Shown here in pieces: positions 4,334 through 63,174 of a DNA stretch of 64,000 nt. The stretch is from Agroathelia rolfsii (lineage: Eukaryota > Basidiomycota > Agaricomycetes > Amylocorticiales > Amylocorticiaceae), in assembly GCA_018343915.1 (NCBI GenBank), contig JABRWF010000005.1, positions 1,709,001 to 1,773,000 of the forward strand. Reading direction: 5' to 3'. Numbering within the stretch: position 1 is the stretch's first letter; each line of letters opens with the position of its first letter. A model generated the notes under the pieces. The model was not told the DNA's origin and did no database searches. It was given only the letters and a program-made list of their open reading frames with translations. Both the position numbers and the translations under genes were made by a program.

Positions 4334-7300
4334 ATGTCTGGCTTGCTGCAGACCATCATTTCCAAATCACCTCTTACTGCCGTTTCTCCTCTCGCGAGCA
4401 CAGATGGCGGCAAAGTCGGACTACCCACGAGCTCACAGGAGCCTCTACTGGATGGCAAGGAGAACTTTGGCAAATGCGAGCTGAGGATAGAGGGCATGAC
4501 CTGTGGTGCTTGTGTTGAAGTGCGTATTCACTTGCTTTGTCAATGAAAGAACGCAGTTAACCGCCGCAGTGCAGTCCATCGAAGGTATGCTGCGCACACA
4601 ATCAGGCATCCACTCCGTCAAAGTCGCCCTATTGGCTGAGCGCGGAGTCATCGAGTACGATCCGTCGGTATGGAATGTAGAAAAAATCATCGAGGTAAAA
4701 AAAGAAAAGAAAAGAAAAAAATCCTACCTCACTTTCTCCTCTCTCGGCGCCTATTAACATTCTCTCTACTTCTCCTAGGAAATATCCGACATTGGATTCG
4801 ATGCTACTGAGATCCCGACTGCCCGTGCTGACACGGTGACGCTACGCGTTTACGGCATGACTTGCTCCGCTTGCACCTCTGCCGTTGAATCGGGGCTTCT
4901 CGCCCTTCCCGGCGTTACAAGCGTCGCCGTCTCACTGGCCGCCAACTCATGCAAGGTCAACTTTGACCGCTCCGTTGTCGGCCCACGGGAAATCGTAGAA
5001 ACCGTCGAAGACATGGGTTTCGATGCCGTGGTCTCCGACCAGGACGATGCGACGCAGCTCCAGTCCCTCACCCGCGTCAAGGAAGTGACCGAGTGGCGCT
5101 CACGGTTCCGCTGGAGCATTGCCTTTGTGGTGCCCGTGTTCTTCCTCAGTATGATCGCGCCGCGCATTCCCTTCCTGCGCCCGATCGTGGGCCACCGGCT
5201 CGTGCGCGGGCTCTACCTCGGCGATCTGCTCGTCTGCATCATCACCACACCCGCGCAGTTCTGGCTTGGACAGAAATTCTACCGCAACGCGTTCAAGGCG
5301 CTCAAGCACAAATCGGCCACGATGGACGTGCTCGTCATGCTCGGCACATCTGCCGCCTATTTTTACTCCCTTTTCGCCCTCATCTTTGCGTTGCTGCGTA
5401 GCCCTGACGATGGGGATTCCAGACCGTTTGTATTCTTCGACACCAGCACGATGCTGATCATGTTCGTCTCCCTTGGCCGCTTCCTCGAGAACAAAGCGAA
5501 AGGGCGCACAAGCGCGGCACTGACGGACCTCATGGCGCTCGCACCATCAATGGCGACCATCTACACCGACGCACCCGCGTGCACGACGGAGAAGCGGATC
5601 CCGACCGAGCTCGTCCAGGTCGGCGACATTGTCAAGCTCGTGCCGGGCGACAAGGTCCCCGCGGACGGCACCGTCGTCTGTGGCGCGTCGAGCGTCGACG
5701 AGAGCGCCGTGACTGGCGAGCCCGTCCCCGTGCTCAAGCAGGCCGGCGATAGCGTGATTGGCGGGACGGTCAACGGCCTCGGCACGTTCGACATGCGCGT
5801 CACGCGCGCGGGCAAGGACACTGCGCTCGCGCAGATCGTGCGCCTTGTGGAGGAGGCGCAGACGAGCAAGGCGCCGATCCAGGCGTTTGCGGATAAAGTA
5901 GCTGGGTATTTCGTCCCCGTCGTGATCTCGCTCGCGCTGGCGACGTTTGCGGTCTGGATGGCGCTCTCGTACGGGCTGATCGGCGACGAGGCGCTGCCGG
6001 AGATGTTTAAGCGCCATGGGGCGAGCAAATTTGCGGTGTGCTTGCAGATGTGTATCAGCGTCGTCGTCGTCGCGTGTCCGTGTGCGCTTGGGCTGGCGAC
6101 GCCGACGGCGATCATGGTCGGCACCGGTATGGGCGCCAAGAACGGGATTTTGATCAAGGGTGGGCGCGCGCTCGAGGCGAGCAGGTCGATTCGCAGGATT
6201 GTCATGGATAAGACGGGCACGGTGACGCTTGGCAAGTTGACCGTCGCGCGGCTCGCGTGGGCGGCAGATCATCATGGAACGAGTTCTGTGGTGGAAGATG
6301 ACAATCACGCTAGTCTAAACGGTCTCTGTGCGGACGGAGTGACGACGCGTGCGCGGCTTCTAGCTCTCGTCTGTGCCACCGAAGCGCGATCGGAACATCC
6401 GCTGGCTAAAGCCGTCGCCGTCCATGGCAAGGGTTTACTCGTTCAGTCCGGTTTGGAAACGATCGAACCTACGATAGAATCCTTTGAGAGCGTCACCGGT
6501 GCCGGCGTCCGCGCCGTCCTATCCCACGCAGGCAGCAAGTATTCCCTTCTTATCGGTAGCGCACGCTTTGCAACACAGACGGACCGCGACGACGCACTGC
6601 CTGCTTCTCTCGCCAGCGTGACCGAACATGAGACCGACCTGGGTCGCACTGTGATCTATGCTTCGCTAGCCCGCGGTAACAATTCGACAACGGCTGTGCG
6701 CGCTCCCGAAGTCGTGTTGGCCATCTCGCTCGCGGACGCGCCTAAGCCGTCCTCTGCGCGCGCGATCGCGGCGCTGCAAGAGATGGGCATCGAGGTGCAC
6801 ATGATGACGGGCGACGGACAGACGGCGGCGGTGGCGATTGCCAAGCAAGTCGGGATCAAGCCTGAGAATGTGTTGGCGAGCATGAGCCCCAAGGGTAAGG
6901 CGTCCGCGATCACGGAGTTGATGGAGAAGGACAAGAGCGGGGGTGGTGTGGCGATGGTATGTTTCCTTCTCTCCCTCCTGCTGGTTTTTTGTTTTGTTTT
7001 TTGTTTTGCTTTTTTATATGCCTACCTATATCGGAAATCTTACCGCCCTTACAGGTTGGCGATGGTATCAACGACTCGCCGGCCCTGGTCGCAGCCACGC
7101 TTGGGATCGCGCTCTCCTCCGGCACCTCCGTCGCGATCGAGGCGGCCGATATCGTGCTTATGCGCTCGGACCTGCTCGACGTCGTCGCGGCGCTGCATCT
7201 CTCGCGAAGCATCTTCTCCGTCATCCTTCGGAACTTCGTCTGGGCGTGTATATACAACGTGTTTGGCATCCCGCTTGCGATGGGCCTCTTGCTGCCGTTT

Positions 7301-7570
7301 GGGCTATATATGCACCCGATGCTTGCTGGCGGCGCGATGGCATTCTCGAGCGTGAGCGTCGTGACGAGCTCGCTGATGCTCCGCTGGTGGGTGCGCCCCC
7401 GGGCCAGTGTGATGCCGGGTGAGGAGGTCCGCGGCGAGACATTGATGATGAGCGCACGGGCTGCCGTGGCGGGCGTATGGGAGGGCTTCAAAGGCACGTT
7501 TAGGTTCGGACGGCGGGTGGAAGCGGAGGGGTATAGTCAGATACCTATGGAGGTTAGAGAAACTGTTTGA
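4334..7570 (+). CDS. CCC2: Copper-transporting P1B-type ATPase (Ccc2/ATP7 type)
   Basis: It pumps Cu(I) from the cytosol into the late secretory pathway, where it loads secreted copper enzymes such as multicopper oxidases and laccases; copper is normally delivered by Atx1. Four exons (4334-4519, 4575-4694, 4779-6956, 7055-7570) give 999 residues, the usual length. Two N-terminal heavy-metal domains carry GMTCGAC (Cys57, Cys60) and GMTCSAC (Cys131, Cys134). Further motifs are the actuator TGE (414-416), the transmembrane metal site CPC (535-537) in ACPCALGLATP, the phosphorylation loop DKTGT with Asp579, the SEHPLAKAV motif of the nucleotide domain, and the hinge GDGINDSPAL (from 830) at the start of exon 4. 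All catalytic residues are intact. The start was chosen as the first ATG in frame (MSGLL) that keeps the usual short leader before the first metal domain. Confidence 0.96.
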
Positions 7571-44989: not shown

Positions 44990-45396
44990 TCATGATAGCA
45001 TTTGATGGACTGCATTGTGCCAAAGCTCTGTAGTCAAAGGGACTGAGCTTCTTTATTATGTTGTTTGAGATCGACGAAACTTACCTCCGTCACGAGATTC
45101 AAGAGTCACGTGAACAGCATCTTTCCAGAGTGCTCCAACTTGCGAAGCCTCAGTAGAGGCCTCAGCCTCTGTATTTCGTGATTCAATGGTCATGTGAACA
45201 GCGTCTTTCCAAAGGCCTCCATCTCGGGAAACCTGAGTATTGAGAGCACCTTCTGTGCAGGAAGAGATAAGCTGGAATGTATTGGATGATCCGATAACAC
45301 GTCGTGCAATATACCTTCTACAGGAAGTGGCGCAGAATGTGCAACAAGGGCTACTGACCCGAGCGTAAGAAGCAAGTACAATGCCTTGGACACCAT
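44990..45396 (-). CDS. Secreted peptide precursor with three LW-x3-VH cores
   Basis: Three exons (45396-45315, 45252-45085, 45027-44990) encode 95 residues. Exon 1 is a signal peptide (MVSKALYLLLTLGSVALVAH, cut near HSA/PLP) and ends in phase 1. The mature part contains three related cores: GGLWKDAVHMTIESR, GALWKDAVHVTLESR and, in a 38-nt last exon, ELWHNAVHQMLS followed by the stop. The first two end in ESR, and SRDGG/RDGGE precedes cores 1 and 3, so each core follows an Arg. It has no cysteine and no CaaX end. It shares its core and its intron placement with three other genes in this window. It is inferred to be a precursor whose short cores are excised, possibly after UstYa-type modification. 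A TATA box lies 97 bp upstream. Confidence 0.82.
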
Positions 45397-47237
45397 TTTG
45401 ATCGTTAAGCGGATTCGTTCTGAGGAGGCGAGGTATTCGTTATCTCTTGGTCGTGAATGGGATAATGCTGCGAGCCGAATACCACGACGAGACTTTATAG
45501 CCTCGTGGATTCAGTGTTTGAGGTGCCATGGCCGTAACTCTTGTTTGAGTCACCCGCGGTACGATGAGCTATAGCATCCACAGTCACCCGTCACTCCTGA
45601 GCAGTCACGAAATTACGTTTTGTGCGGGTGCTGAGCGGGTGAGTCATTCAGCCCACGGGGAACACAGCATTGCTGTTCTAAACCTGTTGTGTATCAGGTC
45701 AATTATGACAGGCACAGAGGTATAATGGATCTCGCCAAGCTGGATACCACAGCTAGTTGTGGTGACTGCACAACGGGTCAGCATAGCTGGAGTGATGGGG
45801 GAAGCCGGCGGAACCGTGCGCCATCAAGATATGGCGTGTGGCTATGTCATCCATATTGATGCCCAGGCAGTTGCATGAACTTCTGATTCGCTTGCCTGGC
45901 AATCGCTTGCGTGTGCCATTGTAGAATATATGTCTAGGTCAAATGTGCCCGTTTACCAGACCTGCATCAGAGCTCGCTTGAAGATCACAAATTTATTCCA
46001 GATAAATTGTCGTTATTGCTACATGCGCACTCCTGCTGATTACTGATGATAAAAATTAATTAAATCAAGGAGAGAGAAAGATACTGAACCACAACGCCAA
46101 GCGAAATGTGGAAATTCTGGCTTTCCGATGCAAATACATGACTGTTGCAGATGTGTGAATTCCAATGAAAGGTAAGCCTATCACTGCGTGTTCAGTAACC
46201 AGCAATCAAAACACCTTGAGAAAGTGGAGAAAGAGAAAAAGCACAGCACATCGTATATGAGTCATAAATACGGGAGCTGTGCTTTCAGGTTTTTTTGTAG
46301 TGCTATTTCTCAGCTCCAAGGAATGCTTATTGTAATAAGCTGATACCGTCAAAATAGCCATTGACATAACTTGAAGCTACTTTTGGCAATTCAGCATGGA
46401 GCGGGAAACACTTCAACAATATTCATTTCGTCCACAGTGTGTACGGTTGTATGATCAGAGAAATAGTGATGACAAAGGTGTGTTTATGCGTCCGGGGAGC
46501 GGAGACCTATACAAAAATAATGTCATTGAAAGGGTCGCACAAGTCTTGATGCACTGAGTAAGCTCGTCATTTATCTACGCATAGTAAGCATCGCTTGAGT
46601 ATCAGGCCCTGAGAGGGAGTGCGCAAAGAGTAGGCAGAGTACATGCACTCTCGGGCCTCGTCACGGACGGCACAACACCGTGATCGCGTGATCGGCTGGA
46701 TGTCTGTGGAGCTAACCCCGGAAGCGGAGTTCTAAATTTAAGGGTGCAACTCCGACACTACCGGACTGAGATAAAACGGAATCGGCGCTTAGAGTCAAGG
46801 ATCTACTTACTTTTGGCAGCCGTCTCACTGTTGTCGTTATTGTTTCATTGATGCTATATTACCCCAGTTGCCAGGCTGCAACAAGAAATAAAAATATAGA
46901 AGTACTCAAACATTTTGTTACAGGGTTACAACTACAAAGTCTACAAGTTTCACCTGGTATTTGTAAGACGGAAGCGGGGATAGCCCAAATAAACTAACCG
47001 AAAATGAACTAATGAATCAAAAGAACAAGATAGAAGAAGCGAAGAAAGAAGTAGAAGAGGAGTCCAATCCAGAACATCGTTATGGTCCAGGTTAGCAATT
47101 CCAGCGACGCGAATAGGCTTAAATAATTAGTGACGCTTTTGGATAAATAGCCTGGGTAAGGTCGACCTTATCGGGTGATTTTGCTCGTGACTACGCATCA
47201 ATGGCTGAGTGAACACAGGTTATCAATTTCGTCCGTC
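45397..47237. other. Intergenic in the accessory region
   Basis: This is 1.8 kb: the promoter of the three-core gene, then AT-rich sequence up to the stop of the nine-core gene. I searched it for further LW-x3-VH cores on both strands and saw none. Confidence 0.5.
45493..45499 (-). promoter_or_regulatory. TATA box of the three-core precursor gene
   Basis: TATAAAG on the minus strand, about 97 bp upstream of the ATG at 45396. The 9-core and 2-core paralogues have TATA-like boxes at similar distances. Confidence 0.6.
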
Positions 47238-47837
47238 TCAGTCGACTGTCTGGTGCACGTCGGCAGACCATATAGCACCCTCCCCGCGTTCGTCCACAGT
47301 CTGGTGAACATCAACAGACCAGATGGCGCCCTCCCCACGTTCCTCCACGGTCGGATGAACATCCGTAGACCAGATGGCGCCCTCTCCACGTTTTTCCACA
47401 GTCTGATGAACGTCGACAGACCAGATGGCGCCCTCACCACGTTCCCCTACGATCGGGTGAACACCAGTAGACCAGATAGCACCTTCATCACGCTCCTCCA
47501 CTGTTTTGTGGACGTCTACAGACCAAAGCGCGCCCTCTCCTCGTTCGTTTACGGTCTGATGCACCTCAGATGCCCAGAGCTTGCCATCGCCACGCTTTTC
47601 CACGGATTCGTGGACAGCAGTAGACCAGATAGCGCCCTCCCCGCGTTCGTCGACGGTTTTATGTGCATCAGTTGACCAGATAGCACCATTATCGCGAGCA
47701 TTGATTTCTGTTTGAGTTGTCAGTTCGGGTGATTTAGGAGATCTAATAAATGAAAGTGACATACGCGGCTGGATAGGTGCAGCCGAGACTATGGAAGCAG
47801 TAATAGCAATAACAGTGATGATAACGGGCGTGTGCAT
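47238..47837 (-). CDS. Secreted repeat precursor with nine 17-residue units carrying an [IL]W-x3-[VA]H core
   Basis: It starts at the ATG at 47837 with a signal peptide (MHTPVIITVIAITASIVSAA). After PIQP a 57-nt in-frame GTATGT..CAG intron (about 47777-47721) should be removed; its phase-1 position matches the paralogues. The remainder is nine head-to-tail units of consensus GEGAIWSVDVHQTVEKR, 17 residues or 51 bp. Cores, in order: AIWSTDAH, AIWSTAVH, KLWASEVH, ALWSVDVH, AIWSTGVH, AIWSVDVH, AIWSTDVH, AIWSVDVH, AIWSADVH. Units end in EKR (twice), otherwise in ER. The KR boundaries are Kex2-type; the others have decayed or need another protease. It has no cysteine. The layout (signal peptide plus many near-identical units with basic borders) is that of dikaritin precursors such as UstA, and of Kex2-processed repeat proteins generally. 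Confidence 0.9.
   Translation of the reverse strand: MHTPVIITVIAITASIVSAAPIQPRMSLSFIRSPKSPELTTQTEINARDNGAIWSTDAHKTVDERGEGAIWSTAVHESVEKRGDGKLWASEVHQTVNERGEGALWSVDVHKTVEERDEGAIWSTGVHPIVGERGEGAIWSVDVHQTVEKRGEGAIWSTDVHPTVEERGEGAIWSVDVHQTVDERGEGAIWSADVHQTVD
47239..47715. repeat. 51-bp coding tandem repeat, nine units
   Basis: This is the DNA counterpart of the nine-unit protein. Units are 51 bp and keep the frame; the last unit lacks its terminal three codons. On the plus strand the words CCAGAT(A/G)G and CGTTC recur once per unit. Divergence lies mainly at the two residues after Trp and at the unit border. Confidence 0.85.
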
Positions 47838-50499
47838 CTTGTCGGATAGGGGGGTGGTAGATAGTAGTGTTTTGCTATGTGGGGGGACTATTGGAGGAGG
47901 CGATAGTAAACTCATGCCAGTTCCAGCTGCTTTTTAAGCTCACGCTCGCGGGCCCGGTGAGAACACATTGCGAGAGGGGTGTCTCTGAAAAAACCTGGAA
48001 GACGTATAGGGATTACCCGAGTGAATAGTGCAAGAAGGCCATGGACCTCGGCTACAGTGGACCAACTCCTGCGCCAACGAATGCTTCCTCCCACGCTGGA
48101 TAGCAATGTCACAGCATGGTAAAGTCAGTCTTGCATCATCGTCCATCAACGTCACCGCCTCGAGGCAACAATGTTTGCCCCGATTGCAGTCGGCAGAATT
48201 CATGCAAGACAACTTGGGAATGAGTCATCCCTGATTTCTATCGTTCATGGGACATTTCATATAGTGGCAGCAGTGTGTTGCTTCCGATAGCAATGTGGCG
48301 CCCTTTTGTGGCAGAACTCAGACCGCATGAATGCGGTGACACATATGATTACCGGATGATCAAATACGGTCATGATAGTAATCCCAAGACTCTGACTACT
48401 CCGAGTACGCAAATCAATTTTTTATTTATGATCGTGGGCTTTTGCAACGTATCATATATCATTGATTACGTTTTTTTTAACCCCACCTTGATGCAATACA
48501 TTTGTAGGCTATGTTATAATATTAGAATCAGTCTCAGTCCGAGTTCGAGTCATAGGTGCTGTGCTTGCACTGGAGTTGACGGAAAGCTTCTTGCGAGCTT
48601 CTCGGACTTGCAAAAATAACGATAGATATAACAGATTTGATATAGCCACAAGTTGCTTGACTTGGAAAACTCTAAGTTATGTTTGCCTTACGTGACATCT
48701 ACTGCTAGTAGTACTTCAGCCAAGCTGAAGAAGTACTCGCGACTACTCGTGATCGTGGCACATATGATCTACGCTTGGCAAAGCCAGGGAATCCACTGAC
48801 GTGTTTCTCCATTTGGGCCAGTTTTCACGATCTGGAGGCGGTGTCGGTTAGCCGCTGCTATTCATATTGATGCATTGTGAGTATGTAGCCGCAGCAAAAA
48901 AAGACGTGGACTATGGGCATGGACCTCGAGTTGTGCGGAATCAAATTTCTTAAAAGTTTGATCTACGCAGCCCTACTTTAGCTATGGTCGGTAAGATAGC
49001 TCAACCGTTGTCGACAGAAGGGGTAACAATGTGCATGAAAACAGAAGCTAATCACCTTTTCTAGTTCCTGAAACACTGGCACAGGCAGGCAGGCGAATGT
49101 CTTAGCTTGTTGGAGTTCCTGAACACCATATAGACGTTGCATGCGGCAGCGAAACGATAAGTACCGTCACGATGCTTCTGGCCCTGCGTGAAGCACTGTA
49201 ACTCCACTTTCGACTGCTTAGGCGGTCCGTCTCAGCTCACCAGGCCCGGAAGCGACGGAACGCGGCGTTTCTCCCGACGTACGACAATGCCCTACGTGGA
49301 CAAGAAAGGATGTGGGACTGGAAGCTGGATACGATCTGTTCCGACGAAAACAAAGAAGCACTTTGTGTATTCATTATTTAGAAGCTCGTGATGTGATGGC
49401 ATGAATAAATAATAACTGGTTGATAACTTCCACAGATATGGCACTACAAGGTTTCCCTTAGGCACCTGATGCTTATATTGTACAGATGAATGTCGAGCAT
49501 TACTGTCCTCATTTTTATTGTAATTGACGAATAGCCTCCAAAATTGTAGTGCGGACCCGGTATGTTCCATCGAAAAAAAATACTGCTCACGTCGGGATGG
49601 CGTAGTATGCGCATCATGATAGATCCGATCATCGAGCACGCCCGCCTATGATGAATGATGAACTAGTATGATGCGCTGGAAGATTCTAGTCGTAGAAAAT
49701 GATTAAATAGAGATGGCGTATGTCGGGTGAGATAGGAGCTATTTTTTTCGAATATATATTTTGGTTGTGCTGGGACGCTGCTGCGTGCTGTGTGATGATG
49801 ATTAAAACGGAACCCAAACGCAACTTGTAATTAATTGTCAACAGCGGTCAAAGCCAATCTAACCATCAATGCTACTCTGGCAAAACCAAAACAGCCTAGC
49901 CATGCTCAGGTCCCTGACTCTGAGTCCAAGCGGAGATAAACTATGTGCAGTAGCATGAGAATAGGACTCTCTGTAGAGCTAGGATAAACTGTTTGATTCC
50001 AATCAAGAGCGTAACAGATGGTTTAGTGATGTTCGTGATGAACACGACATCCGCGTCACTGGGCCGGGCTTGCTGGTGAAGCCGGTGATACTTTTGTTCT
50101 CTAAGTGTTTTTTTTTTCTGACATCACGTCACGGCTATGTCACATTGTCGCACGGTCACCAATTTTAGGACCGCCGCGGCATAGTGTAACATTGCTAACT
50201 CGAGTATTCGGCCGGGGCTGTATCATCACCATAAGACCTGTGCACTATTATTTATGTCTTCGGGAACAGGTCGTCACCGCACAGGACGTTAAAGCCATCT
50301 CCTTGCTTCTCGGAACTATCGCTTCTCCTTACCACCAAGTAGACAGACAGTGTTTCGTTGCACATTCAAGTTCTCCAAGCCTCATCCACCGTTTACTGCT
50401 AGTAGTACCCACGCAGCGCTGTTAGTAATGACTTGCTCGCAAACGCTAGCTCGACTTACTTAAAGCTTATTGATTATATTGAATGTTTACAGACTCGAG
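47838..50499. other. Intergenic in the accessory region
   Basis: This is 2.7 kb between divergent genes, AT-rich in places (48460-48520, 49740-49760). I saw no further core motif, UstYa motif or other gene. Confidence 0.5.
47931..47937 (-). promoter_or_regulatory. TATA-like element of the nine-core precursor gene
   Basis: TTAAAAA on the minus strand about 95 bp upstream of the ATG at 47837, matching the spacing of the TATA boxes of two paralogues. Confidence 0.4.
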
Positions 50500-50802
50500 A
50501 TGCCTCAATACACACCCATTAGCCAGGACGAGGCCGAGACTGAAGCCCTCTTCAAAGAACTGGAGCATGACGGCTCACCAGCCAACGAAACTATCACCAC
50601 TTCTAAGCGCCCATGGCTTGAGCTGCGTGTCTCTCGCTTCACCATCTTCACAGTTTTGGCACTCCTATTTTTCATCAACGCTGCAGCCATTACAATCAAC
50701 TCCCGCAATACTCAGGAGCTCTATCGTATATTGCAATCTCGCACAGAACTATGGACAGATACAAGAGATTTGCCAAGGAAAAATCAAGGAGATATTTATT
50801 GA
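50500..50802 (+). CDS. Small single-pass membrane protein, probable truncated UstYa-like
   Basis: This is a 100-residue frame from the ATG at 50500. It has an acidic cytosolic N-terminus (MPQYTPISQDEAETEALFKE), a basic-aromatic stretch (KRPWLELRVSRF), one membrane span (TIFTVLALLFFINAAAITI) and a 35-residue tail ending NQGDIY. An acidic leader, a basic border and a single span near the start are what the N-terminus of UstYa/DUF3328 proteins looks like. The lumenal catalytic part with HxxHC motifs is absent, both in the frame and in the 1.2 kb that follow. It is either a truncated relic or a small independent membrane protein. A donor-like GTATAT inside the tail leaves an alternative spliced end possible, but I could not find the rest. 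Confidence 0.5.
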   Translation: MPQYTPISQDEAETEALFKELEHDGSPANETITTSKRPWLELRVSRFTIFTVLALLFFINAAAITINSRNTQELYRILQSRTELWTDTRDLPRKNQGDIY

Positions 50803-52025
50803 TATAAGGCGCTCCTCCTCAAGAGTCACTACGGTCTGTGATATCAACTTGTGATTGATGCCGAAAATTGATTTATTCTTCTTCGCAGTACATGTATATT
50901 TATAATTGGACAGTTTCGAAACGCCCGTATCCATTTCTTCTATTCATTAGTTATGTATTATCATGATGCTAAAGCGATACTACATGATCTGAACCTGGCG
51001 CGGTCACTATCAAGAGACAAGGATCCTGAATATGATGTCATCTTTTGATCTTGTTTTGGATTTCTTGCTGGCATCATTACACTAATTTTCGATCTTTCGA
51101 TAAATGTGATGAATTCGGCTGTTTTTTTTTTTAAATCTTCACAAGTATTCTGCCGAATTGCGACGGTGTTGAAAATGGCTGCCAGGATGTTCATTCCTCT
51201 CCTCGGACCCGATATGCGAAAGCAAACTGTAGAATAGACCAGTATCTTGGCTTGCTTGGGTTGATCAGATGTATCTGCTGGGTCGAATCCAACTTGGCTC
51301 TATCTAGCTATTTAGGTCTACACATGTTTCAGCATTCGATGCCTTGACCTGTCTGCATTTTCTGACACCCACACCGACTCCTAGTTTGATTGTCAATCAC
51401 TTACGATGGATCCGATTGCACCGCAAAATGACATGCTGATTCCTTACACCAGCAAATATTATTGTTCTTTTCATGCTGTTCCAGAGAGAGATGGTGACTC
51501 CACTCCGAATCACACGGTGGCTGTAAATGCTGGATTTACGGCTGCGCGAGGCTGTACTACTACTTGATACTGGGCATCATAACAAGTGTGACTCAAGCCA
51601 CAATCCCCGTTAAAAATATTATATCATTTAATGCCATCAAGGTAGTGATCCATACCCACCAGATGTCAACATGCATTGCATTTCATCATTTCCAACTGTA
51701 CTCTCGCAAATACCCATAACGGAATGAGGGAAACGACTCCGTCGATCACCGCCGTTTTGTGTCACATCTTTCACCATTTCACGGCGTTTGACACAGGTCC
51801 CAGGCCCTGGAACTGGCAGCCGTCGCTCTGTCCAACCAATGTTGCAGTGCCTGCGGCGGACAGGTTTTCCGATGTCCCTGGATCATCCACATATCTCTCT
51901 TGTGCTGTTAGAGGTATAAAGGTTTGGACGTTTGGCATTTGTAGCAATCCCTATCCACTACTCATATACAACACCAGCTCTTGTTTTACGACTTAGAACA
52001 TCTACTATCTAAATAATTTATCAAC
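50803..52025. other. Intergenic in the accessory region
   Basis: This is 1.2 kb downstream of the truncated membrane gene, ending in the promoter of the two-core gene. I saw no HxxHC-coding remnant and no other gene. Confidence 0.5.
51915..51921 (+). promoter_or_regulatory. TATA box of the two-core precursor gene
   Basis: TATAAAG about 105 bp upstream of the ATG at 52026, the same heptamer and nearly the same spacing as in the three-core paralogue. Confidence 0.6.
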
Positions 52026-52463
52026 ATGCTCTTTTCACTTCCCAAACTCTCAATCTTAGGCTTCGTGGCATTCATTTCTATTGCTACCTCTAATGCTCTC
52101 CCTGGTGAGCCTTTCCCATTTGTCATCCAATTCTCATTGGAGCAAACTAATTTCTAAATCGTTTTCATGATATCGTTAGTTGACCTAAGCACCTCTTCAT
52201 CTGCAACAGTCCAAAGCGGACAACTATGGAAAGATCATGTTCACATGTTCATTCCTGGACCACAGACAAACGACAAGATTACACCTACGCCTTCCAGGCA
52301 GCATGAAGACTTGGTCGCTCGTCAGTCGGCGACAACGTCGTTATCATCAATTTCATCAACCGCTAGCACCACTACTGATAGTGGCCTTGTCGGGCTGCTT
52401 TGGCGCGACGCTGTTCATGCCGTCATTGATCATTCACCATTGCCTACTGCTGGAAATGCTTAA
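52026..52463 (+). CDS. Secreted peptide precursor with two LW-x3-VH cores
   Basis: Two exons (52026-52104, 52180-52463) give 120 residues. Exon 1 is a signal peptide (MLFSLPKLSILGFVAFISIA, then TSNALP) and ends in phase 1. The mature chain has core 1, GQLWKDHVHMFI, close to its N-terminus. A Ser/Thr-rich spacer follows, and then core 2, GLLWRDAVHAVI, near the C-terminus. Between them are SRQ and ARQ sites that could serve as processing points. It has no cysteine and no CaaX end. It is most similar in core sequence to the three-core gene (WKDAVH) and lies two genes upstream of the UstYa-family gene on the same strand. It is inferred to be a substrate of the same pathway. Confidence 0.82.
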
Positions 52464-54330
52464 GCATACTGCGCAGCATGGTTTCCATCACGATAAATGT
52501 TCTCGGAACCCTTATTGAATCTCCCTAAGGGAATTCTCTTATTTTTAATAGCCTTTCCTACGTTTAAATTATTTGTTTATTTATCAACTTCATCATATCT
52601 ATTGGTCTATTTGCAGGCTATAGGACTTTTAAGCCCCTAATATTCGTATATTCGTTCTTTCTCCAAGCTTACTTACCCACTTGTACTACTATTGCTACTC
52701 ATCATCATGTATTTACTGTTGATTAGGCGGAGGTAGAGTTTGTTTACATACTTTGTACTCGTTTATAATTCAATATTAATTTTGCTCATGCGCATACGTT
52801 TACACTTTGATGCGTCTGCGTTCGATCAAAACCATCAAGCGCAACCTAGATGCTTGATCACTTCGTTTTGTTCGCATCAGAAGACGGCAGCAATTCATAT
52901 ATGCAATATAGCGGGGCAAGTTTTTGCCGCGAAATTAAGTGCACATGCGTAGCAATCCAGCTAACAACCTGAAGGGAAAGACGTTTCCCGTAAACTTAAT
53001 GTTTTTCCCTTGAATCATTCCTCACCGCTGGAAATTGGATTATCGGAAATCACGGTACTATCAGTGTTAAGCGAGTTATTCATCAAAGCCAGGACGGATG
53101 CCACCAAGTACTCATGCAAACGTCGTTGGAAAGGCGATCCGATGCTATCATGGTAATGTGACCCGCCATGGCAAGGGACACCTCACCACCGGGGGTGGAC
53201 GGCACACCCGGATGAATTTCAGCTTTCATTGATATAATTGATGATAGATGGCGTATTGATGACCAGGTACTATAACAATACTGGAGGATGTCAGGCACCC
53301 TGAATATGTGCTGTCAAAGGTTTGAAGATCTAATTAAGAAGATTATTTGGTGTCTACGTATGTATTAGTACCTGAGCCTGAGTATGAACAGCGTTTGAGC
53401 ACTCCGCGGAAAAATAAGGGTGTTTTATCAGATCTCAGGATTATTCTCTTGAGCTCGGTATAGCTTGAAATTTCGAGCTCAGAGACAGTAATGTTGTTTC
53501 TTTCTAATCAGGGTCAGGAGAAAAGCAGGCGTGCTTAAGATGATTCAAACATATCATTGTTGTCGAATCGGGATACCTTTGTACTCAAAAAAAGGGACAT
53601 GTGGCACTCCAGTTATAGCTTTCAGTCCACACAAGTAAGCCTCAAAAGAATTATGTGCCGATAGTGAGCCAGGAGAAATGGTCATCCGTAACAGAAAGAG
53701 CGAATACTTTCTGTGGTCAGCACTGGATGGCGGTGTGACACTGATAGGAGGAAAATTCGGCGCAATAAAGCGAACATACTTCATCATGCTCCATGATTGG
53801 TGTGTTGTAATCATCTCTGGTGTGTACGGACACGGGTTTGAATCAGAGCGACAGGCAGACAGATGGCCATCCCCTTAACTTTAGGACGAACTGAAATGAT
53901 GGCTTGTCATATCGATGAAACACGATGCGATATATGTTTTGATGAACGACGGAAAAGCTTGCGGAAAAGTACTCCTAACCCCGAGTCTGTTTGAACATGA
54001 GTGTCTGTTCACGCAAGGCGAATATCCTGTGCAAAGATGTGCAGCCCCAGCAGATGCTGAGAGCGTTGCGAAAACAAGCGAGTAGAAATGCAGGCGCTGG
54101 CCGAAGGAAACCGAGGTCCATAGACCAAGTGTCCATCACGTGTCAATGCGGCACCGCACTGTCGGTTGATGATCAGATACCAGATACAGAACATTATAAG
54201 GGCCGCAACAATTCCTGTGTCCGTAGGCTTCTAGCGCAAGACACTGTCTCCCGACTCACACACGGAGCTACTGACTGCTGCTGAGCATATACCACTCGTG
54301 TAGACATTTTTGGGCTTACCTTTTGCACTC
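52464..54330. other. Intergenic in the accessory region
   Basis: This is 1.9 kb between two co-directional genes. A minus-strand frame at 53554-53814 has no recognisable features. I saw no core motif. Confidence 0.5.
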
Positions 54331-55115
54331 ATGCCTGCCCTGCGATCTCCCTCAATGCTACCCTACAGCGGAAATTCTCAACAAGACAAGGCTGCTGATA
54401 CCAATGCTCGTCTGATAACCCTTACAACCACTCACATACTCGTCTTATTGTCACTAGTCATTTTCACTTCATTCAATGTCGGGTCAACTGTCAGAAATGC
54501 GAGCCTTCTTACTCAGCTTAGACCCCTGCCGGAGAAGCAGTACAGTATGCGAATCCCCTTGTTTTCACTGCGCTAGTATTCAACAATTTGATTGTCTTTT
54601 AATGTTTAGGTTACATTGGCAAAGACTATCCTGCGCAACTGCCACTTTATCTACCAGAGGTCGGTGTAGAGCTCAAAGATGGTGCACCAGACTTTGCCAT
54701 TATGGCAGATGACGAATGGGGCACGTTGTTCCCCGAGCGCGGCTCTGGCTTCACCATGTTGGGACCCACGAATAAATCATTCATACCCACCATGTACCAT
54801 CAACTACACTGTCTGGACGTGATGCGTGTTGAATGGGCTCGCGCAACAATCGTAAAAAAATCAAAACAGGCGGATGGTGATGACGCAGATCCAAAGGCAC
54901 CAGGTGGCGAGAACGCACAGCACCATTTCGTTCACTGCCTTCGCTATCTCAAACAGGGTATCATGTGTAATGCTGATACGACACTCGAAGAAGCCGTCGA
55001 GCGTGTCAACCCAGATGGTACAATCACTCATGGCTCCAATGGTGTCGACATGGTCCACCGATGCCGCGATTGGGGCGTCCTTAGATCGTGGCTTGATGTT
55101 CACGGGGAACTCTAA
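54331..55115 (+). CDS. UstYa/DUF3328-family membrane oxidase-like protein
   Basis: Two exons (54331-54544, 54610-55115) encode 239 residues. After a short cytosolic leader comes one membrane span (ITLTTTHILVLLSLVIFTSF). The lumenal part begins with DYPAQLPLYLPEVGVEL and ADDEWGTLFPERG. It then has the two diagnostic HxxHC motifs: H135-QL-H138-C139 in MYHQLHCLD, and H177-FV-H180-C181 in HHFVHCLRYLKQGIMCNADT, followed by LEEA. The C-terminus has the HRCRDW motif usual in the family. In ustiloxin, phomopsin, asperipin and cyclochlorotine pathways these proteins carry out oxidative cyclisation or hydroxylation of peptides in the secretory pathway. The gene is intact. Its neighbours are secreted repeat precursors on both sides, which suggests that they are its substrates; this is inference. 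Confidence 0.9.
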
Positions 55116-57183
55116 AGAACGAAACGCGGCGATTCCCACCAACGCCGGGTGGGCGAAGGCTGTCGCGGGCTGCAGGATAGAGTTTGGAGGATTTTAATTT
55201 CTTGGCGTTAACTTATTTCTTGATTCGTGTACAGTATACCATGTAAACATGCAGACTCTTCAGCTTGCCCCGCCGTTCTGTTGTTACTCCGACGTATGAC
55301 AAATTTGAAAACAATTGAAAAATCATTGAATACAGTGTCAGTTGGAGCAGCCTTCATTTAGGGTATCAGTCTTGAAACCTGTTGATTCATGTGGACACGA
55401 GAAAAGAAATACATCTACCCATCCATGACTCCAAAACGAGGGTAGTCGCATGATTCAAAAACACATGATTCCATTCTCATACCGCTTAAATACACTCTAC
55501 TAGAAAGATTTATGACAAATGCGATGATATAGCGAGCAATAGACGGAGATAGTATATAAAGTATTTCAATGAATCATTGCCGTTATCGAAAAGCTGTTGA
55601 CTTGAATTGTGAATGGAAGTATGTATTGGCATGTATATCACCAAAGTGGTTCCCGATCACGATCACGGATTGTCGTCGACGTCATAAGTCCTTGATAAAT
55701 CGTCACAAGCTCAATCGTATATTTCAAGTTGGAGCAGGCTACCAGTGAGAGCAGAGGAAGGTTGAACAGCGAGAGCGGGTCAACTTATGCCTGAACCACA
55801 ACAGGTAGTGTATTCGGCGATTATCTAAAGGCACTATGAATCATGTAAGGCGAACGACATCGATTAGAGTGTGAATTTCGAGTATGATAGGTGTTGTAGA
55901 CAGGGTGAGGGGTGAGAAGTGAGAAGGGCTGGGGTGGTGGCAACCGCCTGCTGAGCCTGTTGGCCCCTTAGCCGCATAATCTAGCTTGAAAGACACCGTT
56001 TAACACCGGGCCTGTGTTTCTTTTGTCGGAGGACGTCAAGGATCATCCTCGCACTTAAAAATATTCAAACCCGTGTACGTTTACTTGTTTGTTGGCGACT
56101 TGTTCGTTTTGGATCGCAACTAATTTATACACAGGTTAGGCTCGAAGGAAGGTTAACGACTCTGGAGGAGTATTTCAAGGCGGAAGATTGGTCATCTGTC
56201 ATTTATTAGTGAAAGAAAATACTATGCATGATACAGACTCAAAAGTAGTCTTCCCAGTCGATTGAGTGATTTATTTTTCAAGTACCGGCGAGCATTTTCG
56301 TTTATGAGCCGACCATTTGCATGCCATTGATGCATGACAGAGTCGCTAGCGGCTTACATGTGCAGGAAAGAGCATCTTACAGGGTGGTAGATGAGGCACA
56401 GGCGCCGTCATAAGTTACATCCGAGTGACGGTGCATTAGCACTTATATGTGTTGCCTATTGTTTAGTGGATAACATGGCTTAACATTCCTTGCTGAGTAT
56501 GCAAACTGCAGTGTACGTGTAATTCCAAACGTATATGGGCACGCCATATATACCATAGCCGTCGAGATGAGGTTGCAGGCCAAGCCAAGATCGATGACAC
56601 ATAACATCAGAGAGTGTTTGATTCGTTGTTGTACATGGTCGTACGCAGTCAAACGGATAAGTACTTGCAAGCAACATGTGACTGCTGTGAAGGAAGGTAT
56701 GGTCCATAGGTCATGTGACCTTTTCCCCATTGACCCGTTCCATCCAACTCCGATGCTTCGGATTTACCTCACCACCTCATAGTCCTAATTCAGATGAATT
56801 ATCGATACAACTTTGCCAGGCCACTACAGCGTCTAGTAACATCGTTCACTGTTTCCTCTAGGTTTTAATCCAAATCTAGGTTCAAATCTAGTACATGGCA
56901 ATTGGTCTTGAGGGATGATATATTGGCATCGCGGTTACCGTTCATAATAAGAGAAATTAAGCGTACAGTGAATCCTATCGCGGCTTGGAGACAAGTGAAG
57001 CACTAATCCCGATTTCGGCCTAGTTAATAATCAAGGTTTGCTCTTACTACATGTGCATATATTATCATACTTTTTACGCTACCACGCTTACTACAAACGT
57101 CATATCATCGCCATATAAATATAAGACTATTACTATGGGGTAAGGGCCACAACTTTATATTGACCGACTGAGTATCACATCGT
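55116..57183. other. Intergenic containing an NmrA relic
   Basis: This is 2.1 kb between the UstYa-family gene and the NmrA-like gene. Apart from the relic exon at 56135-56209 I see no coding sequence. A TATA-like TTATATTG lies just before the NmrA ATG. Confidence 0.5.
56135..56209 (+). pseudogene. Relic of the last exon of a second NmrA-like gene
   Basis: After an intact acceptor (TTATACACAG), 25 codons read VRLEGRLTTLEEYFKAEDW then SSVIY and a stop. This is clearly related to the last exon of the NmrA-like gene at 58448-58525 (VGLKGKMTTLEEYIKSEDW then SSVINW). None of the earlier exons could be found upstream. It is the stub of a tandem duplicate whose body has been lost. Confidence 0.8.
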
Positions 57184-58525
57184 ATGAGCGAAAAAATTTC
57201 AAAAGTCTTTGTTGTTCTTGGAGCGACTGGTGTGCAAGTGAGCGCCAGCAATACGAATTCATCCCACGATGGCTCACTAACCTTTGTCCTATCTCCATCT
57301 AGGGCGGTTCTTTAGTTAAGGCACTCTTGAATGATACCAGCAGGAAATGGAAAATTCGTGCTGTTACTCGAGATCCTACAAAACCTGAAGCAAAAGATCT
57401 CGAAAGCAAAGGCATAGAAGTTGTCAAAGCTGATCTTGGCGATATTGAATCTTTGCGCAAAGTCTTTGTGGTAAGCAGCTATTGACCAGCTGAAGGCTTT
57501 TCCAAGGAGCCCTTCTTAGCATTCTAACATAAAACTCTTCCATTTTTTTTTGTACAGGGTGCAAACTTTGTGTTTGGAGTCACTGATTTCTGGAGTATCA
57601 TGCGTCATGAGACGGAGAGGGGTCAAGCCACAGTCTCCGCTTCCGACGAAACGAGCGCATACAACTTGCAAGTACTCCAACGCACCTTCGATCTCGAAGT
57701 CCAAGATGGCAAGAATCTCGTTGATGCTGTTGCATCCATCGCGAACACAACACTGGAGCGCTTTATCTGGTCCGACCTGCCCGCTGTCAAGAACAACAGC
57801 AACGGCAAGTACGTGCATTGCTACCATTTTGATTCCAAGGCCGCTGTCAAGATGTACATCCAATCTGCGCGCCCAGAGGTGGCCAAGAAGACGGTTTATC
57901 TGCAGCTGGCGTCCTATATGTCGAATTGGAAGTTTGCGCCGGTCTTTCGTCCTATCAAGGTATCTCTATTCAAAACGTTCCCAATTTAATGGGCAATGAT
58001 GAATATGAAATGTCTCGCCTGTGCAGTGCGAAGACGGCGTGTACGAGTTCCGATCCAACGCAGACCCCCACACAATCTTTCCCCGCGTCGAAGCGATTGG
58101 GGATACCGGAAAGTTAGTGCTCGCACTCCTAGATGCCCCTGCCGGAACAACGCTCTTGGGCGCCGGCACAGAAGATACACACGCGAACATGGCCGCACTC
58201 TGGGGCAAGATTTTGGGCGTGCCAGCGCGCTTCAAACAAGTGTCTTCGGAGGAATGTGCAGCCGCCATTCCGTACGGTGCAGGTCTGGACGTCGCACAGG
58301 GGATAGCGTATACATCTGAGTTTGGATGGGACGGTGGGAAGTTGGGTAGTGTTCTCGGGCCAGAGGACGTAAGTCTGTTTGTCGATTTGGCCACTTTGGG
58401 TTCTCTGGACGGTTGTAAGCTTGGCTAACGCGTTTGTCCGATGTCAGGTTGGGCTCAAAGGAAAGATGACGACTCTGGAAGAGTATATCAAGTCGGAAGA
58501 CTGGTCATCCGTAATTAATTGGTGA
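57184..58525 (+). CDS. NmrA-like NAD(P)-binding protein
   Basis: Five exons (57184-57237, 57303-57470, 57558-57959, 58027-58368, 58448-58525) give 347 residues, the normal length. It is an atypical short-chain dehydrogenase-type Rossmann protein. The glycine motif GATGVQGGS (12-20) is formed across the first intron, followed by AVTRDPTKPEAKDL and a VVKADLGDIESL strand, as in NmrA/HSCARG. FVFGVTDFWS and RFIWSDLP are further family landmarks. The classical YxxxK pair is not evident, so it may be a redox sensor or a reductase with a different mechanism. Such proteins occur both as nitrogen regulators and as tailoring reductases or isomerases in fungal gene clusters. Its position beside the UstYa gene makes the second role possible. 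Confidence 0.9.
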
Positions 58526-59911
58526 AATAGGAAATTCAAAGCATGACCCGGAATATTATAGAGGAGCCTTTGATCGGCTTGATTCGCAAATGGGATCAGA
58601 TTGTAGGTCAAGTGTATCCCCAGTAATTATATGTGGTCCGACGAGTCTAGCTACCGGTCCAGGAGGACTCTTGCTTTGCGACCGCGACTCAATCGGCACT
58701 CGCCGTACCTACCGGTCGATGGTCGATGATCCATAGAGTTAACCTCAAAGATTCATGGCATGGATTCTATATTCATGTTTGTATTCTGGCCCGAGTGACG
58801 TGCGGTACTTCAAATTGTGCGTTGCCCAGCACGATCATCTGTATACACGCGGTAAGAAAAGAAAGAACAAGAACGAAGCTGTTGGCAAGCTCAACATGGA
58901 GTTCGGAATCTAATGTATTCCGTGATATACCATGCGTCTGGATATAGCTCGAACCTTGAAGCAAAATTCAAGTTGCCAGTAGGGCCGACAGATCGTCGGA
59001 CCGATATAAGTCGGACGTCCAGCAGATACCGGTCCGTCTCTCCGTAGTAGTAAGCTCTCTCCCCCGAATTTTGATTCCGACTCCGAATGTGAGTCGGTAT
59101 CATGGATCCCTTCAAAACAAAGTACGTATTTGCTATTATTGACAAGACCTATACGAGCAACCTCGCCAAGCCATGGTACTACCATTCAATACCCTCCAAA
59201 ATTCCTTATGCCCTAGTACAAAACTTGAAAGTCTAGGGGTAATACTATATAAGTGGGCTTTGGACAACGTATGAGGTAATACTATGCAGTAGTTTACAAA
59301 AGCGACACCAAGGCAGAAACAAAATAGAGACAGATGTACCAAGTGTGAACCAACGATGACGACAACAAAAAGAGAATATATAGACAAAACGGTGGAAGGA
59401 AGGCAGGTAGGAACAGAGACGGAGAGGATCGCGAAAGATGAAAAAAAAACAAACTGCTAGATCGTTGGGTGCTCATAGCACAGATAACGAGGACAATGGC
59501 GCGCAAGGGTGGAGAAGGGGGCAGGGTATTTTGTGTTTGTATGTATTTCGTAACGATCAAGAGGAAAGGGAGGGAAGAGAGAGAAAAACATTGCGTTTGT
59601 ATATGCTGATTATTATGATTACGAACGGCGGGATCATGTCTGAGTAAAGCAGGGTCATGCAAGTAGACAAAAACAAGGGCAAAAAGAAGAAAAAGAGCGA
59701 CGAGGGGAATCAAAAAGACCAAAAAACAACAAAAAATCACGAGTGCATGACAAAACATTGTCCCTTTTCCGTTCCCTTTTCTTTCTTTTCTCCTGGTGAT
59801 GAACAGTGATTATGTGAGGTGTGAGAGATGTTCATTTCATTCGGTTTTTCTTCTTCAGCCAAGGCCAGAGCAACCAAAAGAGCGGCCTCGAGGCTAATCG
59901 AGCATGCCCAC
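58526..59911. other. Intergenic, convergent 3' ends
   Basis: This is 1.4 kb between the NmrA-like gene and the stop of the multi-TM gene. A-rich and purine-rich tracts lie at 59280-59780. I see no gene. Confidence 0.5.
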
Positions 59912-61331
59912 TTATCTCCTACTACCTACGCTCTCTGCGTCCATACTTCTCCTACTCCCGCTCGCCTTGCTGACGCTATCATGCTTCTCGCGGCGTGCGA
60001 GCTCAACGTCCTCATACTCGACGTCCGTCGTGCCATAATCAGTCGTCATCGTCGGCCGGGTGGCGTACGTATGGTTCGTACGCTCGAGTCCCGTACGTGT
60101 CGTCGCTGGGCGGGCCCACGAGATGCCCGTTGTCGTCATGGCGGCGGTGGTGTATTCAGCGGAGACGCCGAGACCGACACGGAATGAGATCAGCGTGGGT
60201 GCGATGCCCTATTTGTTTTATTTGATGTATCAAAGTGATGTGGGATAAATATGATGCAATCATCAGTATTCCCATGACAAGGTATAGACAGCGTCAAAAA
60301 AAAAAAAAAAGATGGAAGAGGACTGACATATATCTGAGCGCCAATCACGCCCAAAATTGCCTGAGAGACATTGCCGATACCGAAGGCGACGACGAAGACG
60401 AACTGGACGAGCAGGTAGAGTGCACCGCTCTCAATCATGATGCTCGCCGCGTCCTGGATATGGCGTGCTGTGCTCTGCGCGACTTCCTCTGCCTGATCGC
60501 CTTCAATTGCGGGGTCGTTTTGGCGGCGGCGGCGGAAGAAGCTAGTGCCATAGCCAATGTAGTAGATCCTTCCCACGATGAGGAAGGTGATGATGAAGTT
60601 GGTCACGAGGGGCAGAGCGAAGGAAGCGGTTCCAAGGGGGACCAGCGCAGCCGGGGCGACGGGTGCGTTGGGGTTTGTGTTCCGCAGGATGCCTAGGCCG
60701 GACATGGCGCACACTTGTGATAGGAATTATATGCATGGGAAGAAAAGGCGGAGGATTAGCATCATCATCAAATAGAAGAGAGAAGGAAGGAAAAAGATTA
60801 TTTGATGGGATGCACAGATACGTACAGAAGCCACCCAGGGCAGTCAAAAATGGCAAGATGCAGACGAAATAATTGCCACCCCAAACAAGCCAGCAGCGGT
60901 AAAGCAAGACCAGGTCACCGATGAAATCGGTCAGGGAGAGAATAACGTCTGCTGCATAGAGATAGTTGTTCTCATTGGCATAATCCTTCACGATGCCAGT
61001 TGATTCCTAAACGAATGAAAGTGGGGAATGTAAGAGGGGGTGGGGGAGTTGGTGTAAAGATTATGTTATTGTACAGTCATGAGAAAGTGAGAGGAGAGAG
61101 AAAGAGACGAACAAGATAGGTATAGAAATGGTTGAATTCGAGTGAGTAGTGACAAGTACACAGGAGAAAGAGAAGAATTGTGGCGACAATCATTGGGACG
61201 TTGTATGCTTGAGTGCGACGGCGAGTGGTGAGGTAGAGCATGCAAAGCAGAAAGAGAGGAATGTAGAGGCCATAGAGGATGGACTCGCATGCGAAGCCGA
61301 TGAGGGCTGCGATGTCATTAGAGATGGGCAT
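59912..61331 (-). CDS. Multi-pass membrane protein, about seven TM segments, function unknown
   Basis: Four exons (61331-61113, 61006-60826, 60713-60328, 60208-59912) encode 360 residues. Hydrophobic spans include LYGLYIPLFLLCMLYL, VPMIVATILLFLLCT, VILSLTDFIGDLVLLYRCW, FVCILPFLTALGGF, FALPLVTNFIITFLIVGRIY, SGALYLLVQFVFVVAFGIG and a short one at the exon 3/4 join. The extracellular N-terminus is short. The last 75 residues are a hydrophilic Ser/Thr/Arg-rich cytosolic tail. The VLLYRCWLVWG signature is typical of a large basidiomycete-specific family of seven-TM proteins with no known ligand. Exon 1 uses the weak donor GTTCGT. Nothing ties it to the peptide cluster except location. Confidence 0.8.
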
Positions 61332-62776
61332 GGTCGACAGCAGCAACGATGATGGTGAGGCGAAGGCAAGACAGCGCTGGCTAGAGGAAAACAGCAAACA
61401 GCAGCCGGTGGAGAAGACGGAGCCTGAGCCTGAGAGGGAAGAGGCCACTGAGGACGGTCCAAGTCCAAGCCCGGCCCAGGGGAACATCTTGACATCCGGC
61501 TACACATGCTCCCTCCTGCTTCTCCGGTCCACGTGCCCCGCAACCCGATAAGCTTGCCCCATTGCCACCGCCACCCATACCAGCCACAATCCTCCGACAG
61601 CCTCCGTCTAACCATCCGATGCCTAGTATTCTCGTCTGCTTCAAGTTGTGCACTTGTTACATCTGTCTCTTCCATCCCCACATCCTGCTCATTCACACTA
61701 GCCATGCCCAGAAAGTGTCCATTCTCCTAGTCCCTGCTTTCATCTTCTCAGGTTCGTTCATATGACGTTCTATTATTGTCAAGGCACATTCTATCTGATG
61801 GATGCCTTATATGCACTCATCTACTGCCGATAACCCCCGCAAGCCTGACAGCAGTGTGACCAGACAACCACAGAAGCGTCAGCAAAGACACAACATTTAG
61901 TATGCTCGTCATTGCGGAAGAAACAAGGAAAATGCTGGACCCTATCTATCCTTATACTGCAACTGCATCATGGAATCACATCGAATGCAATCGTGGCTAG
62001 GCAAAATCTATACTTGCTGCTGCTTCTCTATCCAACTTCTTCATCTGGCGGATTCCGCTCATCATGTCCCTTTTGATGTTTGTATGGATGAATGGATGAA
62101 TCAGCAGCCCATGTGCCGCTCACGTGTTTCTATCCTTGTAATCATTTTCATTTGTTTCGTGGGCAATGGGCATGCTTAAGTCAGCACTCGCATTTTGACA
62201 TCAGGAGGAGTCGTCATCGCTATATCCCTGAGCCAAAGCTTCATTTGACCGTAATAGGTACCCTTCTCGATCAGCACGATTGGCAACGTGAACAGTGAAA
62301 GAATCATCGAATTCATCGTCACGTTTTTTTTTTTTTAGCCGTCGGCTATCCCGATTCTGTAATTGACGTTTCTATTCGGGCGGGCTATTGATTCGCTCTC
62401 TCTTACGACATTACTTGTAGTGCACAGTTCATCCATTCATTCCTGCCAAGGATGGCTTTATGCAGTTACACAAGTGCAGAATTCCACTCCTCTCAGGCAC
62501 TTTTGCAGGCGTATCCAACTCGAGCCATTAAAGGTCATGTAGCGCTTACAGTTGGGTATTACAGTAAAACGCCACACCTGTCCAAGCGGACATACGCTAG
62601 TTTACGACAACTGCGACTCATCCGTTGCTTCTAAAATTCCATAAATGGCCTAGATTGGTCTGAGAGTGTCACTTCCACTGCGTGTTAATTATTGTTGTAA
62701 TATAATTGGCAGTCGACACAAGTTAGGGAGGCTCGAGAGGCGAGAACACACACACACTCAGCAGTCTACCATTAGC
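61332..62776. other. Divergent intergenic stretch
   Basis: This is 1.4 kb between the multi-TM gene and the single-core precursor gene. Frames here are short and have no recognisable features. It should hold both promoters; CATAAATGG about 135 bp before the precursor ATG is a weak TATA candidate. Confidence 0.5.
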
Positions 62777-63174
62777 ATGCGCACTACGACAACTATCTGT
62801 GTTTATCTTTTATGGGCTGGATATGGCCTGGCTTTGCCACTGATGGCATCAGGTATGTACACGAAACCCTGGTTGCCTGCTAGTAATCTATTTTTACGTT
62901 TCCCTTCTTACAGAACTTCCTGAGTCGCGTGGACTTGCCAGGGATGGTTCAGACGTCAACAGTCGCGCAGATACGTCTATTCAACTTGGTAGGTGGAATG
63001 CTCTTCTCCTTTCTACGAATTTTACCCAGGAATCTATGCTCAGGCTGATTGTTTCTTGCTGTTCTTTTGATGCGCGTACGTCCAGCAGAACTTTCGAGAC
63101 GCCAGACCGTCTCGCCCGACAGCTCAAATCTATGGAAGAATGCTGTCCATGTTGCGATTGGAGACTACATCTAG
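62777..63174 (+). CDS. Secreted peptide precursor with one C-terminal LWKNAVH core
   Basis: Three exons (62777-62852, 62914-62988, 63089-63174) give 78 residues. Exon 1 is a signal peptide (MRTTTTICVYLLWAGYGLAL) ending in phase 1, as in the paralogues. The middle part is rich in Arg-flanked short segments (ESRGLARDG, VNSRADTS). The last exon begins ELSRRQTVSPDSSN and ends in the core LWKNAVHVAIGDYI and a stop. The dibasic RR lies 10 residues before the core. The exon 3 acceptor is a tandem CAGCAG, so one extra Ala may be included. The gene is visible only after splicing: the core is read in a different frame from the longest open frame there. It has no cysteine in the mature part. Confidence 0.75.

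Follow-up and report, generated by a model that had tools for sequence, protein, structure and literature searches.

A conserved family of precursors with Tyr-free Trp/His cores, four of six beside a copper-type UstYa/DUF3328 oxidase, in a basidiomycete-type genome

Related peptide systems

Dikaritin loci (those of the ustiloxins, phomopsins and asperipin-2a) combine a secreted multi-core precursor with a UstYa/DUF3328 enzyme and a nearby reductase-like gene, and in ustiloxin, asperipin-2a and phomopsin it is Tyr that is cross-linked. Here we describe a locus with a similar set of genes at positions 44990–63174 of a 64,000-nucleotide stretch of DNA (the window; positions 1,709,001 to 1,773,000 of contig JABRWF010000005.1, C5 below). 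Its precursors belong to a conserved family with Trp/His cores, and a gene for a copper-type oxidase lies beside four (P1–P4) of the six family members. Unlike the dikaritin loci, it lies in a basidiomycete-type genome, its cores are free of Tyr, most of its linkers have no dibasic Kex2 sites, and it has several precursor genes per enzyme, two of them unlinked. We read it as a dikaritin-like system for a ribosomally synthesised and post-translationally modified peptide (RiPP), in which UstYa would oxidise the Tyr-free core, and we judge this reading to be evenly poised between right and wrong. The genome comprises 37.7 Mb on eight contigs. We take the host to be an Agaricomycete, that being presumably the class of the named species with the nearest UstYa relatives.

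Basidiomycete Kex2-processed repeat proteins (KEPs) resemble the window precursors in being secreted proteins with repeated short peptides (PMC7329392; PMC6339444). In the survey text of Umemura 2020, 103 of 1680 basidiomycete repeat precursors lie near DUF3328 genes, so DUF3328-linked repeat precursors are already known from this phylum (PMC7329392). The same text gives, for DUF3328-accompanied KEPs of all fungi, repeats with Tyr in 65.6% (about a third are without it) and with Trp in 20.5%, and describes an abundant DUF3328-linked type, P-3, that holds Trp with Pro (PMC7329392). It is therefore not new in itself for a core to lack Tyr or to hold Trp. The survey text notes that DUF3328 genes rarely adjoin basidiomycete repeat precursors, and it does not decide between a cyclised motif that varies from phylum to phylum and a near absence of cyclisation in basidiomycetes (PMC7329392); for this question the locus offers a concrete Tyr-free candidate with a defined enzyme and core. 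Kex2 sites between repeats were demanded in the survey (PMC7329392), whereas the window precursors mostly do without them, and searches with this demand could miss such precursors. The W-x4-H core is not named in the survey text, as distinct from its supplementary tables (PMC7329392; PMC6339444). Titles and abstract openings of the open literature, a scope outside which subscription papers and supplements fall, yielded no W-x4-H DUF3328 peptide that we recognised. For Pleurotus, 16 UstYa-like genes are described in the part of the source used here, six of them developmentally expressed (PMC8893723).

Precursors and the Trp/His core

The original prediction, made from the letters of the window, placed four secreted precursors in the locus, and all four held up on splicing (Table 1), with 15 cores in total (3, 9, 2 and 1 in P1 to P4). 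Their introns are of the GT-AG type, with splice sites picked by eye. A phase-1 intron lies shortly past the hydrophobic N-terminus in each of P1–P4, and its like placement supports common descent. In P2 this intron measures 57 nt and is in frame, so an unspliced reading is also open; its removal leaves nine cores with an exact period of 17 amino acids (aa), of the type GAIWSVDVHQTV. P1 carries the cores GLWKDAVHMTI, ALWKDAVHVTL and, in its last exon, the C-terminal third core ELWHNAVHQML; P3 carries QLWKDHVHMFI and LLWRDAVHAVI. The single C-terminal core of P4, NLWKNAVHVAI, is preceded by one RR site.

Two further precursor genes of the LWKDHVH kind, P5 and P6, came to light on contig C2 (C2:995.0-997.0 kb; L033:5956-6257 and L033:7667-7983) through pattern searches of the whole genome. 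Each has two cores and is organised like the last part of P1: a C-terminal E-[LI]-W-x3-V-H-Q core preceded by a phase-1 intron. A counterpart stretch on C8 (C8:2493400-2496600) holds an intact P6 and a broken P5, with an early stop and with one core His and one core Trp changed. By inspection rather than by a signal-peptide predictor, all six precursors have a hydrophobic N-terminus with a small-residue cleavage context; inspection likewise puts the last core of each right at the C-terminus or close to it. Short-chain dehydrogenase-like and alpha/beta-hydrolase-like genes, read by eye, neighbour P5 and P6.

The core consensus was refined to G-x-[LI]-W-x3-V-H-x2-[VIL]. We compiled 38 cores from 12 precursor sequences (P1–P4 twice, P5 once, P6 twice, and the metagenome homologue P0001). 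The count includes neither the C8 allele of P5, which is broken, nor a third core that P0001, an unspliced record, may have. Because [LI]W-x3-[VA]H served to select the cores, its four fixed positions are necessarily invariant. Position −3, occupied by Gly in 35 of 38, and position +8, occupied by Val, Ile or Leu in all 38, were not used for selection; position +4 is Val in 37. Outside the N-terminal hydrophobic parts, every Trp of the 12 sequences (38 of 38) falls within a core. P0001, which comes from a relative, keeps 19 of 20 core residues, compared with 33 of 47 in the rest of the mature part (Fisher p 0.028).

The full core is concentrated in this family genome-wide, and the concentration is not due to chance. 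All patterns were designed from the precursor family itself. The full-core pattern has 32 matches in the 37.7 Mb, 28 of them in the family, and the controls, including the reversed pattern, gave 0 and 0; one of the four outside matches was read, and no precursor was seen there. The pattern hyd-W-K-[DN]-x-V-H (hyd, hydrophobic) matched only within the family (11 of 11; controls 0 and 0), as did a C-terminal core pattern (5 of 5). For the looser L-W-x-[DN]-x-V-H, 14 of the 33 matches lie in the family and the controls gave 15, which shows that the short motif lacks specificity by itself; no precursor was seen at the ten of its 19 out-of-family matches that were inspected. Next to other UstYa genes, 18 stretches of ten kb, covering 10 of the 16 UstYa loci, were scanned for [LIVMF]W-x3-[VA]H; the ten matches were scattered and, on inspection, did not fall in any repeat precursor. 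The same scan returned 12 matches in two stretches of a syntenic copy of the locus on contig C4.

This C4 copy is inverted and has about 85–87% mean nucleotide identity to the locus on C5. Between the two copies the ratio of non-synonymous to synonymous substitution rates (dN/dS) is 0.22 for P1, 0.21 for P2 (89% identical to its C4 copy), 0.28 for P3 and 0.27 for P4, and it is 0.058 for UstYa, 0.17 for the NmrA-like gene and 0.08 for a 100-aa protein. Such low ratios indicate that these are likely functional genes under purifying selection. Core-only ratios, from small counts, are 0.52 for P1 (three changes), 0.15 for P2 and 0.05 for P3, and are not computable for P4. At the 60 anchor codons ([LI], W, [VA] and H) in the two copies of P1–P4, one non-synonymous change compares with six synonymous ones.

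A different view of these proteins is that they are secreted and stay uncut, their repeated Trp/His units serving to bind metal, the cell wall or each other. The exact period of P2 and the lack of a Kex2 dibasic site in most linkers suit it. P4, however, has one C-terminal core, all six precursors end in or close to their last core by inspection, as peptide precursors do, and the spacers of the precursors other than P2 vary in length and sequence. We consider uncut repeat proteins a very improbable account of the family.

A search of 5.8 billion proteins with P1 found a sole match at E 0.001, P0001 (E 5.7e-30). With the unspliced model of P2 the same collection yielded 2689 candidates, of which not one reached E 0.001. 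As both searches depend on exact words in common, they may miss distant relatives. Pfam matches of P2 to Evr1_Alr and four other families all fell below their cut-offs and were rejected as compositional.

The UstYa/DUF3328 oxidase

The enzyme gene was found where predicted, with both HxxHC motifs. Its protein scores 71.7 bits against PF11807 (cut-off 25), and the motifs are HQLHC at residues 135–139 and HFVHC at 177–181. Across an alignment of 45 sequences, which used 44 of 58 relatives and omitted, among others, two weak ascomycete matches, H135, H138, C139, H180, C181, C191, H221 and C223 are invariant and H177 is kept in at least 90%. An AlphaFold2 model of medium confidence (mean predicted local distance difference test score, pLDDT, 71; predicted template-modelling score, pTM, 0.50) places an N-terminal, membrane helix at 17–63 and motif helices at 132–158 and 172–191. 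Neither a single-sequence nor a profile search matched a solved structure. The DUF3328 member CctR is described, in the portion of its source used here, as a homodimer that is associated with membranes and uses O2 and electrons, its binuclear copper site being formed by the HxxHC motif pair (PMC12435403). The HxxHC(x)nHxxHC residues to which that site is ascribed are also present in the window UstYa (PMC12435403). With CctR, and with AprY and ApnU as mentioned in the same source, it shares this motif pair, one membrane helix (in the window protein, as modelled) and conserved cysteines (PMC12435403). Among named species, relatives in other Agaricomycetes score as high as 188 bits, and a protein from a metagenome scores 294 bits, compared with 31 bits for the best other UstYa of its own genome, scored exon by exon. 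These higher scores outside the genome than within it suggest a single-copy enzyme of an old lineage.

The gene lies within the four-precursor stretch and adjoins one precursor at 1.9 kb. UstYa matches in the genome number at least 36 and form 16 loci when joined at 30 kb, both counts being lower bounds, and the probability of a match in a random 18.2-kb stretch is 0.0098. We considered that the enzyme might be a chance neighbour, or act on another substrate, while the precursors release unmodified secreted peptides with signalling, antimicrobial or host-directed roles. Two of the six precursor genes have no UstYa match nearby, only 103 of 1680 basidiomycete repeat precursors in the survey text lie near DUF3328 genes (PMC7329392), and a conserved core is to be expected of a receptor ligand no less than of an enzyme substrate. 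Against unmodified peptides stand the chance of only about 0.01 that a UstYa match falls in the precursor stretch and the strong conservation of the enzyme among the precursors (dN/dS 0.058). We regard this alternative as unlikely on the whole, and still as one that deserves substantial weight.

Proposed maturation of the core

A RiPP system, as the original prediction proposed, is a reasonable reading because the precursors have several cores and hydrophobic N-termini, the core is conserved, and an intact copper-type DUF3328 oxidase lies 1.9 kb from one of them. The broken P5 allele, with its changed core His and Trp, is counted in its favour. We conjecture that the ribosomally made precursors enter the secretory pathway through their hydrophobic N-termini, read as signal peptides, and that UstYa sits as a homodimer in the membrane of the Golgi or the endoplasmic reticulum with its dicopper site in the lumen. 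There it may oxidise the core while this is still part of the precursor; Trp and/or His would be the most likely sites, and hydroxylation, dehydrogenation or formation of a ring between them the reaction. Proteases would then release peptides of about 10–17 residues, cutting most linkers at a single Arg and a few at Lys-Arg or Arg-Arg. The same UstYa would serve the unlinked P5 and P6 in trans; maturation enzymes can act in this manner, and we assume that this one does. As guesses, the NmrA-like oxidoreductase might reduce an intermediate and the 100-aa protein might be a partner.

Plant moroidin-type burpitides carry Leu-Trp and Trp-His links. They offer an analogy, and only that, in that a copper enzyme works on a core in which a His lies downstream of Trp; the enzyme family and the kingdom differ. 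BURP-domain proteins are described as copper cyclases in the part of the source consulted (PMC12186524). A Trp-His cross-link in the window core is a possible modification, which we put forward as a proposal. Its full form has the putative DUF3328 dicopper enzyme making a moroidin-like link from W to the H at +5, perhaps together with the preceding Leu/Ile, with one enzyme for six precursors at two unlinked loci and release at single Arg rather than at Kex2 sites; we think it quite unlikely to be right.

Several observations weigh against the dikaritin-like RiPP reading. The 17-residue frames of the 38 cores contain no Tyr. Two of the eight P2 linkers are Lys-Arg and the other six Glu-Arg, and P1, P3, P5 and P6 have no dibasic site at all; the P1 linkers contain Ser-Arg. 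The core-only dN/dS of P1 is not low. The exact-word protein searches found no precursor homologue in named species, though the UstYa type has relatives in many. Around P5 and P6 there is no UstYa match within 640 kb on C2 or 800 kb on C8. With this second precursor locus counted, the link rests on one locus and weakens: the chance that at least one of two loci has a UstYa neighbour is about 0.02, compared with about 0.01 for a single stretch. Words in the 600 bp upstream of nine genes, compared with 355 background stretches, included no convincing common one. The best 7-mer had p 8e-5 (3710 distinct words); the best 9-mer, ACAGACTCG, had p 6e-6 (5161 distinct words) and occurs upstream of three of the nine genes, namely UstYa, the 100-aa gene and P6. 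Corrected for one of the four word lengths tried, the 9-mer has a nominal value of about 0.03 and is not taken as evidence.

The locus probably works like a dikaritin system and is not to be filed as one, because its cores have no Tyr, most linkers have no Kex2 site, and enzyme and precursors are co-located at one of two loci. Of the predicted dikaritin-like RiPP locus, the RiPP part stands as reasonable and the dikaritin class does not. The original prediction had also named wide occurrence of the core family away from any DUF3328 gene as evidence against itself, and this holds in part: the P5/P6 locus has no such match within 640 kb, and the P1–P4 locus has one.

The same genome provides a contrast. 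On C3, at about 5318.5-5319.0 kb (L016:2506-2951), a 12-unit repeat [DE]DL[DE][IV]TL[KT][QK]PY[KR]R lies about 2 kb from a UstYa match (C3:5315946-5316485). Every linker holds Lys-Arg or Arg-Arg and every unit one Tyr, whereas the window family has Tyr-free cores and, in P2, two of eight linkers dibasic. Upstream, a start resembling a signal peptide is in a different frame, which implies an intron. The repeat looks like a classical Tyr-core, Kex2-type dikaritin-type precursor, and the pair shows that this genome holds Tyr/Kex2 precursor-UstYa pairs.

Other genes and genome setting

Table 1. Features of the locus in the window
Feature	Position	Strand	Description and basis
Precursor P1	44990..45396	-	94 aa, three exons, three cores; spliced by hand, C4 copy, metagenome homologue P0001
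Precursor P2	47238..47837	-	180 aa, nine cores; splicing and C4 copy
100-aa protein, one hydrophobic stretch	50500..50802	+	conserved ends in both copies, low dN/dS
Precursor P3	52026..52463	+	120 aa, two cores; splicing and dN/dS
UstYa/DUF3328 oxidase	54331..55115	+	239 aa, two exons; PF11807 match, motifs HQLHC and HFVHC
Relic of second NmrA-like gene	56105..56220	+	90.5% identity to C4 copy (L010:7484-7599)
NmrA-like NAD(P)-binding oxidoreductase	57184..58525	+	347 aa, five exons; PF05368 E 3.5e-43
Precursor P4	62777..63174	+	79 aa, three exons, one core; splicing and dN/dS

The 100-aa protein had been taken for a truncated UstYa-like protein. We reject this: it is an intact, conserved membrane protein unrelated to UstYa, with no Pfam match up to E 1 and a profile match to UstYa of 0.5% probability. 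Its gene has the same ends in the C5 and C4 copies, which differ by 13 synonymous and four non-synonymous changes, and is not a relic, since dN/dS between the copies is low. Only these two copies were found in the genome. An intact NmrA-like oxidoreductase and a relic of it were also foreseen, and both are present. The relic, at window 56100-56230, has a fuller counterpart in the C4 copy (L010:6600-9000), where most exons of this second NmrA-like gene can be read by eye.

Between the NmrA-like gene and P4, the minus strand of the window holds a gene for a multi-pass membrane protein (59900-61490), whose hand-spliced model has no Pfam match up to E 0.1. About 1.8 kb past P4, at C5 ~1773.9-1776.3 kb (L002:938-3300), lies a cytochrome P450-like gene that may belong to the locus; it was recognised by eye from GGGRACMG, which we take to be a P450 motif.

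Besides the locus and its C4 copy, several other pairs of stretches on C4/C5 and on C2/C8 are alike at 85–92%, and matches among stretches of one UstYa gene group are lower (71–88%). The simplest view of the paired stretches is that they are two nuclear haplotypes of a dikaryon; the syntenic pairs on C2, C4, C5 and C8 suggest such a phased dikaryon or, alternatively, two subgenomes. C2 also has UstYa matches of identical score in opposite orientation, at 1.97/1.99 Mb and at 2.09/2.19 Mb. Farther from the locus, the window holds a heavy-metal P-type ATPase gene (4779-7352) whose product has E1-E2 ATPase and HMA domains. Some 47 kb separate it from the UstYa gene, and its presence in the window is probably due to chance.

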